Source: a virus. Taken from it: 42,446 bases of DNA. The DNA lies in IMG/VR virus record IMGVR_UViG_3300018059_000022, positions 1-42,446 of that record; one strand, 5' to 3'. Position 1 is the first letter of the stretch. Every line of letters starts with the position of its first letter. Positions 5,044 through 7,306 of the stretch are shown in pieces. The notes beneath the pieces were generated by a model. That model ran no database searches and was not told the DNA's origin. It was given only the letters and a program-made list of their open reading frames with translations. The position numbers and the translations under genes are program-made.

Positions 5044-5685
5044 ATGACAGAAGCACAACATGCAGTAGAAACTCAACCAGAAGTTGTAGCTAACTTTGAT
5101 AATAAGATTGATGTTAAAGAGTTCAAGTTCTACTTTCGCAAAGATGAACTTGGTAACAAACGCCCAGAAGTAGTACTTAAAGTTCCAGTACCAAGTGTAG
5201 AAGGTATTGTTGCTATTCTGCAAGCTGGTGGCAAAGAACTGGACTTGTTGCTTGATACTGTGGCAGATGTAGTTGCAAGTCAAGCTCGCAGTATTGTTGA
5301 TGAAACTATCGACGTTAGCCAAGATACATTCCCAATGAATAAAGTTACTTGGACTTACATCGCTAATCTGGAGAAAGCTGCTCGCCGTGGTGGTGGTATT
5401 CCTAAAGAAACTTGGGAAGCCTTTGCTAAGGACTATGTGGAAGTTATGCCTTCTATTACTGGTAAAACACAAGAGCAAATTGGTAATGCTGCTAAGATTC
5501 TGCTTAACAAGTTTTCAGCAGTTAAGACTCAGAAGCCAGTTCTGCATCTGTTGAAAGACCAACTTGCATTATATGTTTCTAACTCTCTTAATGCAGACCA
5601 GTATATCGACTGCGTAGAGTTCTTGCTTAATAAAGCTGATACTTTGTTGAGCATGACTGAAGCTGATCTTTTGGCAAACCTGTAA
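5044..5685 (+). CDS. Strongly expressed early protein of unknown function, 213 aa
   Basis: This gene forms a unit of its own: strong promoter (4921), AGGAG ribosome site, gene, strong terminator (5693). Its codon use is richer in G and C than its neighbours (28 of 60 bases in 5341-5400), which suggests high expression. The protein has an acidic N-terminus, a beta-like section (residues 25-50, FKFYFRKDE...PEVVLKVPVP) and a helical remainder. It ends in TEADLLANL, close to the AADLLAL end of the protein at 41686, and the two share a VPV...QA...ELL plan, so they may be distant relatives. An abundant DNA-binding or host-modifying protein would fit, but no family is recognised. Confidence 0.8.
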   Translation: MTEAQHAVETQPEVVANFDNKIDVKEFKFYFRKDELGNKRPEVVLKVPVPSVEGIVAILQAGGKELDLLLDTVADVVASQARSIVDETIDVSQDTFPMNKVTWTYIANLEKAARRGGGIPKETWEAFAKDYVEVMPSITGKTQEQIGNAAKILLNKFSAVKTQKPVLHLLKDQLALYVSNSLNADQYIDCVEFLLNKADTLLSMTEADLLANL

Positions 5686-5692
5686 TAACTAG

Positions 5693-5732
5693 CAAGGAGA
5701 TAACAATAGTTACAAGTTATTTCCTTGTTTTT
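5693..5732 (+). terminator. Rho-independent terminator
   Basis: Arms CAAGGAGATAAC (5693-5704) and GTTATTTCCTTG (5716-5727) pair over 12 bases with one G-U, loop of 11, followed by TTTTT (5728-5732). It lies 8 bases behind the 5044 gene and closes the single-gene unit. Confidence 0.88.
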
Positions 5733-5764
5733 ATCCTTAACATTCTTTTGTAAATAAGAACAAG

Positions 5765-5936
5765 TAACTCTGAACATGCGGGTGTCCCACAGAGTTATGA
5801 GCTCTTTCCAACTAAGATATGGTACTATAAGATACTTTGTATGTTGAGTTCAGAAAGTATCAGGTATCACGGCTATCTTAGTTGGTTTCTTCCAGTACAG
5901 TATTACATAGTATTCTCTACTGTGCTGGAAGAAACC
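5765..5936 (+). ncRNA. Candidate structured RNA or regulatory leader
   Basis: About 230 bases here carry no credible gene but several strong hairpins. (a) TAACTCTG (5765-5772) pairs with CAGAGTTA (5790-5797). (b) CCAACTAAGATA (5808-5819) pairs with TATCTTAGTTGG (5874-5885), enclosing GATACTTT (5831-5838) with AAAGTATC (5854-5861). (c) A 19-base stem, 5884-5902 with 5918-5936, has a single G-U. Stems b and c share two bases (5884-5885), so they abut or compete. The block sits between a terminator and the ribosome site of the 5962 peptide, so it is either a stable small RNA or the leader of the long downstream operon (attenuator or RNase III site). It does not fold as a tRNA: the enclosing stem is 12 bp and there is no T-loop consensus. 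Confidence 0.6.
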
Positions 5937-5961
5937 ATATAATTTTGTAAGGAGACTTATA

Positions 5962-6012
5962 ATGACTGTAGTGCGAAATAGACGTATCGCAATAAGAGTA
6001 GAAGATAAATAA
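5962..6012 (+). CDS. Possible leader peptide, 16 aa
   Basis: AAGGAG sits 7 bases before an ATG that opens a 16-codon frame (MTVVRNRRIAIRVEDK, stop TAA at 6010-6012). The next gene starts 10 bases later and has no clear ribosome site of its own. The peptide may therefore serve to deliver ribosomes to the 6022 gene or to sense the folded leader just upstream. It could also be only a ribosome landing site; coding is not proved. Confidence 0.45.
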   Translation: MTVVRNRRIAIRVEDK

Positions 6013-6021
6013 TTATACTAT

Positions 6022-6345
6022 ATGCTTTCTACTCGCGAAGTCTTTGAGAAACTTCTAACTGGTGAAACTCTTGCTATAGAGTTTATATCTCAATCTGCGC
6101 TTAACTCTTTCAAGGGAGCAATATATGTATATCGCATGCGATACAATAAATCTCTTGAAAAGCTAGGTGCTGGTGGAGATATATTTGGTATTAATGTACT
6201 TACTATAACTAAGATTATACCAGAAGTACCAATAGATACTATTAGAGAGGTACCTATCGGCGCTTACAATCTGTTTCCTGCTACATATAAAGTAATGCTT
6301 GCAAAAAAACCTGAACGCAATCCAGGATTCAAAATACTACAGTGA
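6022..6345 (+). CDS. Hypothetical protein, 107 aa
   Basis: No good Shine-Dalgarno site; the start is probably reached by coupling from the 16-aa frame 10 bases upstream. The protein is basic, helical at first (residues 1-45) and beta-like later, with a run of Ile/Pro/Val (KIIPEVPIDTIREVPIGAY). Its stop overlaps a GTG start (GTGA). No domain recognised. Confidence 0.65.
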   Translation: MLSTREVFEKLLTGETLAIEFISQSALNSFKGAIYVYRMRYNKSLEKLGAGGDIFGINVLTITKIIPEVPIDTIREVPIGAYNLFPATYKVMLAKKPERNPGFKILQ

Positions 6346-6590
6346 TTAATATAAGAAAATACGCTCCGATATGGTTAGAACTTAAAACTAAATTAAAAGT
6401 AGCTGTAGCAGCTCCTCCACCTATGCACGAACGCATTATTAAAGGAGTTATGAAAGAAAAAGATAAAGACTTAGGATTCAAACTTATGGCTTCTGAAGAA
6501 AACAGATGGTATAAGATTGAATATACAAAAAACCAAAGTAAATTAACTTTTGTACTTAAAAATAAACGAATAGGGTTAAAAGATTTATAA
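6342..6590 (+). CDS. Hypothetical basic protein, 82 aa (GTG start)
   Basis: Starts at GTG inside the GTGA overlap with the preceding stop, so translation is probably coupled. It is strongly basic (many Lys), with a beta-rich second half that could bind nucleic acid. It ends in GLKDL, a weak relative of the LTVxDL tails found on the next genes. Its TAA overlaps the ATG of the zinc-finger gene. Confidence 0.65.
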   Translation: MINIRKYAPIWLELKTKLKVAVAAPPPMHERIIKGVMKEKDKDLGFKLMASEENRWYKIEYTKNQSKLTFVLKNKRIGLKDL

Positions 6591-6769
6591 TGAGGCTAAA
6601 ACCTATAAGGTTTATTAAAGTAAATAATCCACACAATGGATTAACCTGCGCTTTTTGTGGTAAAGCGGGTACTTTAGCTTATGATTGGAAGTCAAAACTG
6701 TGTATTTGTGGACTATGCTTAGAAGCTCTTAAAGAGTTAATGAATTCATCAGAGGAACTAAAACTATGA
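6590..6769 (+). CDS. Small zinc-finger protein, 59 aa
   Basis: The start overlaps the previous stop (TAATG) and the stop overlaps the next start (ATGA at 6766-6769), which is strong support for a real gene despite its size. Cysteines at residues 20, 23, 38, 40 and 43 give a CxxC-x14-CxCxxC arrangement, a likely zinc ribbon or treble clef. It is basic at the N-terminus and acidic at the C-terminus. Such small phage zinc proteins usually bind nucleic acid or a host protein; the target here is unknown. Confidence 0.75.
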   Translation: MRLKPIRFIKVNNPHNGLTCAFCGKAGTLAYDWKSKLCICGLCLEALKELMNSSEELKL

Positions 6770-7038
6770 TAACAGCTCCAGAACAAGGATTCGAACTGCG
6801 CGAAAAGGTAGGACAATTGCAGACAGCGCTACTAACTGCTCACCCAATGATGCCTACACTTCTTCGTACTATACATATGCAGCTTAAAGCTGACCCAGAA
6901 ATAGTAACACTGTTATCTGACGATGAGATACACATAATTGTAGAAGGCTTAAAGAAACAAACTAATACAGAACTTGCTATGTCTATGCTGTCTGGTAAAG
7001 GTAAAAGTTTGAAAAAACTTACTGTGGATGATTTGTAA
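6766..7038 (+). CDS. Hypothetical protein with LTVDDL tail, 90 aa
   Basis: Coupled to the zinc-finger gene (ATGA). The protein is mainly helical and acidic in the middle (residues 45-68), then has a basic linker GKGKSLKK and a final LTVDDL. A nearly identical end closes the 7290 gene, and a related one lies near the end of the nuclease at 7681. The linker plus tail looks like a docking peptide. No domain recognised in the body. Confidence 0.7.
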   Translation: MITAPEQGFELREKVGQLQTALLTAHPMMPTLLRTIHMQLKADPEIVTLLSDDEIHIIVEGLKKQTNTELAMSMLSGKGKSLKKLTVDDL

Positions 7039-7039
7039 T

Positions 7040-7306
7040 ATGAGCAGTTCAATGATACTACAAACTGCACAGATTATATGGTCAGGAAAACATTTAGATA
7101 ATGACCTAGTAATCTTTATTATGCCTGATCAAAAAACTATAGGTTATATCTATACTACACCTGATTTTATTTTAGATGGTAATGTGGTTAGAGAAGAACT
7201 TATTAATATAGATAAATTAGTAGAGGTTTTAATAGTTTCTATTGAAACTCAATATCTATCTGCTGTAGTACAACAAAGGATAAATACTCATGCAATCCTC
7301 CACTGA
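7040..7306 (+). CDS. Hypothetical protein, 88 aa
   Basis: The ATG at 7040, one base behind the previous stop, is preferred over an in-frame ATG at 7028 inside the upstream gene; the same spacing recurs at 7681. The protein is beta-rich with an Ile/Val core (VIFIMPDQKTIGYIYTT) followed by helices; no membrane segment is convincing and no family is recognised. Its end overlaps the next gene by 17 bases. Confidence 0.65.
   Translation: MSSSMILQTAQIIWSGKHLDNDLVIFIMPDQKTIGYIYTTPDFILDGNVVREELINIDKLVEVLIVSIETQYLSAVVQQRINTHAILH

Follow-up and report, generated by a model that had tools for sequence, protein, structure and literature searches.

Hairpins between a terminator-like element and the next operon of a podovirus-like phage: a candidate RNA processing or end-protection element with structural counterparts in relatives

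The gene border

The stretch of DNA analysed in this study (the window) comprises the 42,446 nucleotides of the viral record IMGVR_UViG_3300018059_000022, whose proteins point to a podovirus-like genome. Judging from its sequence, it carries a helicase, a family A DNA polymerase, a primase/helicase and a terminase, and the DNA polymerase shares 26-34% identity with its counterparts in Aeromonas phage P5, Polaromonas phage Tiera, EBPR podovirus 3 and the PaP2 group. We have explored positions 5693-5961 of the + strand (the block), which sit between a gene for a protein of 213 aa (5044-5685, +) and an operon starting at 5962. The 213-aa protein belongs to a family without a named function, with 15 IMG/VR relatives in one search and 36 and 73, with alignments, in others; it has no match in PHROG or Pfam, and its family has no relative in the bacterial genome collection.

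Downstream of the block, on the same strand, a Shine-Dalgarno-like AAGGAG (5949-5954) precedes a 16-codon frame (MTVVRNRRIAIRVEDK, 5962-6012) that is in frame with the 107-aa gene at 6022 and is ended by TAA; this frame could be a leader peptide or a shortened gene start. The 107-aa gene (6022-6345, +) has relatives in L001, L002 and L003 (24-34% identity). It is followed by a gene for a small alpha/beta protein of 82 aa (6342-6590, +), which alignments show to be conserved across the phage group and whose predicted structure (AlphaFold2, mean pLDDT 88.8) gave no confident fold match when compared with the PDB. The 213-aa and 82-aa families both have many relatives in IMG/VR and none among cultured phages in the annotated phage collection. 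Elsewhere in the window, near the contig end, a low-complexity frame with repeated ML/LL residues (251-499) stems from a short tandem DNA repeat.

The stems of the block

The stems named in an earlier, sequence-only reading of the window are genuinely present in the block. It opens with a terminator-like hairpin (T1, 5693-5734, +; -13.7 kcal/mol), the arms of which (5693-5704/5716-5727) form 12 pairs around an 11-nt loop and are followed by the tail TTTTTATCC / TTTTTAT. A stable stem with a U-rich tract directly behind it is the pattern expected of an intrinsic terminator, and T1 would qualify as one by sequence; it had been called perfect, which is slightly inexact, as one of the pairs is G-U (5699/5721). 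The tail of T1 may also pair weakly with sequence further on (CTTGTTTTTAT at 5724-5734 with ATAAGAACAAG at 5754-5764, +), an alternative that reached p = 0.010 against shuffles with a hand-set anchor and p = 0.16-0.19 under automatic rules, and whose score falls within the range of the controls.

Behind T1 lies the expected 8-bp stem, H1 (5764-5798, +), which pairs 5765-5772 with 5790-5797 across a 17-nt loop and gains a ninth pair if the G-U 5764/5798 is counted. The next structure had been described as a 12-bp stem enclosing an 8-bp stem. Both exist (5808-5819/5874-5885 and 5831-5838/5854-5861), but a middle helix of seven pairs, two of them G-U (5820-5826/5863-5869), had been overlooked, and it makes of the two stems one long imperfect hairpin of 27 bp (H2, 5808-5885, +; -26.7 kcal/mol), with a 4-nt bulge, CGGC, at 5870-5873. 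H2 does not pass as a classical intrinsic terminator, which has a G+C-rich stem and a short loop: it is G+C-poor and long, an imperfect 27-bp hairpin with the tail TTTCTTCC.

H3 (5884-5936, +) pairs 5884-5902 with 5918-5936 in the 19 bp previously reported, including one U-G. No near-perfect inverted repeat in the window is longer than the one formed by its arms, and folding of 5882-5938 yields -31.8 kcal/mol. The 5' arm of H3 begins with the final two bases of H2 (5884-5885, the overlap between the 12-bp and 19-bp stems having been correctly noted before) and includes the U-rich stretch TTTCTTCC after H2. In the minimum-energy structure the two hairpins stand side by side, H3 adjoining the H2 helix end to end, and the 3' end of H3 lies about 25 nt upstream of the next start codon. 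With 19-20 bp in H3 and 27 imperfect bp in H2, both have the length of T7-type sites, that is, intercistronic double-stranded stems of about 20 bp or more. Attenuation via strongly competing stems was considered and rejected, as H2 and H3 overlap by two bases only; a switch controlling the operon at 5962, which had also been suggested, gains little from stems that share so few bases and fold next to each other. The 5 complementary bases through which H2 and H3 might form kissing loops are, on a rough estimate, no more than chance would give.

Stability and coding potential

The + strand of 5733-5961 has a minimum free energy of -73.7, against -47.4 +/- 4.7 for shuffled sequences (z -5.56, with 0 of 200 shuffles as good), so that the proposed comparison with shuffles came out in favour of a structured RNA; the minus strand gives z -6.37. 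When the + strand was covered by 1,059 tiles of 120 nt, those starting at 5881 and 5841 ranked as the two most stable. A protein encoded through the block was rejected: we saw no sizeable frame, and the longest ATG-initiated frames found by eye on the + strand, of 23 and 33 codons, lack a Shine-Dalgarno sequence. As had been claimed, no gene seems to fit the region, and a conserved protein frame, named beforehand as an argument against the structured RNA, was not found to run through it. A tRNA search found none, and among 4227 Rfam families the window has no match at the gathering threshold, the best weak hit being mir-567 (26.9 bits against a threshold of 90). The block occurs once in the genome, the hairpin's own complement aside. 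Our analysis supports the presence of a structured + strand RNA between the terminator and the next operon.

A second hairpin at the tail of the first in related phages

Among relatives, RNA structures are concentrated in the spacer that follows the 213-aa gene. One set of relatives carries at this spacer the structured RNAs that we call M1 and M2 (described below), and another set, closer to the window, has a terminator-like hairpin followed by a hairpin that pairs with its tail. In many IMG/VR phages of this group, the 5' arm of this second hairpin is the U-rich tail of the first, with stems of 13-28 bp, mostly 17-28 bp. The letters of the tail helix differ from one relative to another (CTTTTTATAAAGTCCCTC/GAGGGACTCTATAAGAAG in L264, TTTATTCTTAGGCAC/GTGTCTAAGAATAAA in L038, TCTTATAGATGGC/GCCATCTATAAGA in L282 and L289, GTTTCTTGTAGTCTCT/AGAGATTACAAGAAAC in L001, GGTTTTTTAATAAGACC/GGTCTACTTAAAGAACC and variants in L256 and L255), which indicates that the pairing is kept and not the sequence. 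The sequence of the block itself shows no conservation even in L001-L003, and L002 and L003, the nearest relatives after L001, have a simple hairpin only. A check for covariation in related phages, as earlier proposed, could be answered for the architecture and not by a conventional covariance model, because the closest relatives share too little sequence at the block.

H3 and the second hairpin of L001 have GTTTCTT in common on one side and AAGAAAC on the other, their remaining differences being paired changes; the two may be homologous, two sequences being by themselves no proof. The second hairpins of L256 and L255 share a near-identical apical part (GCTGTAG TTTCTTTAGCTGGTTTC CTACAGC, then ACTAA), of which L254 has a variant, and the closing stem covaries (GACCACTC/GAGTGGTC versus GACCGTTC/GAGCGGTC). 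Second hairpins of relatives usually end 20-60 nt before the next ATG. Between the two strands, the + strand RNA folds more stably in 15 of 19 second hairpins (Wilcoxon p = 0.006), a preference that is mildly biased and partly built in, as the stems were found with G-U pairs allowed.

Recurrence was scored as the best helix starting at the tail of the first hairpin, compared with dinucleotide shuffles of the downstream DNA. With hand-set anchors, H2-H3 of the window and seven relatives reached the minimum p (1/301), and the H2-H3 tail helix, scoring 46.5 against 14.2 +/- 2.5 for shuffles, was among the strongest examples. As these anchors had been chosen by eye, a single automatic rule was then run on all focal spacers, a set extended with new loci, and on controls (spacers behind unrelated genes, from other phages); a pass was defined, among spacers with a T-tailed hairpin, as a tail helix score of at least 28 with p <= 0.01. 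Of the focal spacers 12 of 38 pass this rule, and of the control spacers 0 of 70 (Fisher p = 9.7e-7), counts in which the loci examined first were picked by eye and the focal set includes some loci closely related to one another. In an earlier control, 0 of 78 ordinary T-tailed hairpins scored 29 or more. Roughly two in three focal spacers that have a T-tailed hairpin fail the rule; L254, L255, L266, L277 and L281 were missed despite an observed tail pairing, because the rule anchored on the second hairpin. In the window it selected T1 and not H2 (tail helix 17.5, p = 0.19), so the window stands outside the 12 and rests on the hand-anchored H2-H3 test.

Two further features of these relatives were seen by eye. 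In L282, a tRNA-like sequence with a CAT anticodon seems to begin a few nucleotides past the tail-pairing hairpin. In L002, a frame of 230 aa (6402-7094) ends in a formylglycine-enzyme or C-type-lectin-like motif, an end that recalls the targets of diversity-generating retroelements.

Other structured RNAs at the same locus

M2 is a leader RNA found at this locus in relatives. It is built of stems A and B, with 94.3% of cells paired across 22 sequences and a covariation score of 0.94 versus 0.22 for shuffled sequences; of these pairs, only the inner eight of stem A had served in the search, so that stem B and the outer part of stem A are independent of it. An extra 3-bp helix, joining the first junction (AUG or CUG) to the second (CAU or CAG), is paired in 22 of 22. 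With our covariance model of M2 (R1), hits down to E = 6e-4 were obtained at 32 of the 94 loci from relatives, and the motif often directly precedes the 82-aa start codon. Examples beside the 82-aa gene are 5691-5797 in L004, 1359-1445 in L005, 3670-3769 in L036 and 3926-4058 in L044, among others. There are two subtypes, one having AUGGUAA with GCAUAAA and a third stem, the other CUGGUAA with GCAGAAA; possible variants in L112, L128 and L132 have AAC/GUU replacing AUG/CAU. By model R1, the conserved junctions (A/C)UGGUAA and UC(A/U)A..GCA(U/G)AAA are absent from the window.

M1 is an H-type pseudoknot, NNNCCUGRNCAYGANNUAAAACUGYYC, widespread in IMG/VR among phage contigs of many sizes (examples include L134-L253, such as 7951-7974 in L170, and about 3661 in L051). 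In at least 118 distinct contexts, the pair (1,14), which the search left free, is Watson-Crick in 118 of 118 against 59 for shuffled sequences, and for the outer pair (0,15) 92 of the 118 contexts listed can pair, with 51 doing so after shuffling. M1 often lies directly upstream of tRNA genes, and a TATAAAT box stands just upstream of it in 7 of the 118 contexts listed, with 0.9 expected. The window has 0 matches to CCUGRNCAYGANNUAAAACUGYYC with up to 3 mismatches. Neither M2 nor the M1-bearing examples tested have a match in Rfam, and a limited literature search yielded no description of M1 or M2. Upstream of the 82-aa gene, L089, L090, L104 and L111 carry a repeated element (ATCCTGGACGCAATCC ... 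ACCTGAGTTGTACAGGGTAGGATC), probably a further structured RNA. The locus thus emerges as a hot spot for undescribed structured RNAs in relatives, among them a pseudoknot, M1, that is spread through many phages.

Interpretation

We tentatively read the block, with somewhat less than even confidence, as an RNase III processing or end-protection element at a gene border, placed after incomplete terminators. T1, and possibly H2 with its U-rich tail, would be incomplete terminators on the + strand. A polymerase passing H2 would make the partner strand, and the tail TTTCTTCC would become the 5' arm of H3; given the order of the arms, the H3 duplex could form only in read-through RNA. Because the second duplex would form only after the polymerase has passed the first hairpin, it would mark read-through RNA. 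Host RNase III might then recognise this duplex, or the duplex might otherwise block exonucleases, and in this way the two messages would be separated and their facing ends, 3' in the upstream and 5' in the downstream message, protected. The participation of RNase III is suggested by stem length. A study of RNase III sites in E. coli took 22 nt of double strand as the minimum target and describes one site, located between pflB and pflA after a strong terminator, that may keep two messages apart (PMC5371410); the lengths of the second stems in relatives (most of them 17-28 bp) fit this target size. The sequence-only reading, which had offered a small RNA, an RNase III site or a switch, is thereby upheld as to the structured RNA, and among its proposals we infer the RNase III-type site as the favoured one.

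A simpler account, possible and on the whole doubtful, would have tandem terminators and a stable 5' leader only: T1 would end the upstream transcript, and H1-H3 would shield the downstream message from RNase E and exonucleases, with no cut by RNase III. The stem and U tail of T1 agree with this account, as does the end of H3 25 nt before the ATG, most second hairpins of relatives lying within about 60 nt of the next ATG. It leaves unexplained, however, that second stems begin precisely where the first hairpin has its U-rich tail, and do so far more frequently than in controls. We consider it improbable that the block releases a trans-acting phage small RNA, although its fold is compact and very stable and has terminator-like elements of its own, since we found no recognisable separate promoter, no Rfam match and no sequence conservation even among L001-L003.

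A role of the DNA itself, as palindromes for replication or protein binding or as an inserted palindromic element, likewise has a low probability. The palindromes are present on both strands, and the minus strand also folds better than shuffles (z -6.4), but the order of hairpin, U-rich tail and second hairpin is strand-specific and lies ahead of + strand genes, the second hairpins favour stability as + strand RNA (15 of 19), and besides the hairpin's own complement the block has no second copy in the genome. Finally, the block might be a degenerate or lineage-specific M2, a cis element for the 82-aa gene. The locus is the same, and the topology of H2 is alike (a long stem, a 4-nt bulge on the 3' side, a short helix, an asymmetric internal loop and an apical stem). 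Membership of H2 in M2 is nevertheless largely refuted by its sequence and by model R1, whose only alignments here are confined to helices, score at most 12.2 bits and lie on H3, not on H2; with the conserved loop sequences missing and the 107-aa gene intervening, we regard this origin as very improbable.

Returning to the processing or end-protection element, its nearest known counterparts would be, by analogy, lambda sib/tI in logic and the RNase III sites of T7 in position. As in sib/tI, a hairpin terminator would stand at a gene end (T1 has the sequence pattern for such a terminator at the 3' end of the upstream gene), and a further duplex, the proposed RNase III target, would exist in read-through RNA only, here H3, which pairs the tail behind H2 with downstream sequence. 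In lambda sib, sequence transcribed past the terminator lengthens the stem that surrounds the hairpin; in the block, by contrast, a separate hairpin starts at the terminator's tail. The T7 early sites resemble the block as long intercistronic hairpins that separate early genes in a podovirus-like phage and precede the next ribosome binding site, but the hairpins of the block are tied to a terminator-like hairpin and its tail, their sequence turns over fast, and cleavage is here a proposal. Retroregulation of lambda int by sib/tI (reference 18 therein) and T7 early RNA processing are both cited in the same E. coli study (PMC5371410). In stem, loop and U-rich tail, T1 is like an ordinary intrinsic terminator, whereas a strong tail-pairing hairpin behind it is very rare among ordinary phage T-tailed hairpins (0 of 78 and 0 of 70 controls).

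A bolder generalization, which we think rather unlikely to be right as it stands, is a "tail-lock" terminator: in phages of this group, a terminator's U-rich tail would be taken up by a second hairpin, preserved in structure rather than in letters, and RNAs that stop at the terminator would thereby differ in their 3' and 5' ends from those that read through it. If true, it would amount to an as yet undescribed class of RNA module that senses read-through, with a sequence-independent structural rule telling terminated from read-through messages. Such a rule would give compact phages a simple means of adjusting the relative amounts of neighbouring transcripts and how long they last. A further lead comes from the put antiterminator RNA of HK022, in which two stem-loops abut early in the phage transcript. 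The likeness lies in the general layout of two abutting stem-loops; unlike put, the block sequesters a U-rich tail, and its position follows a gene end.
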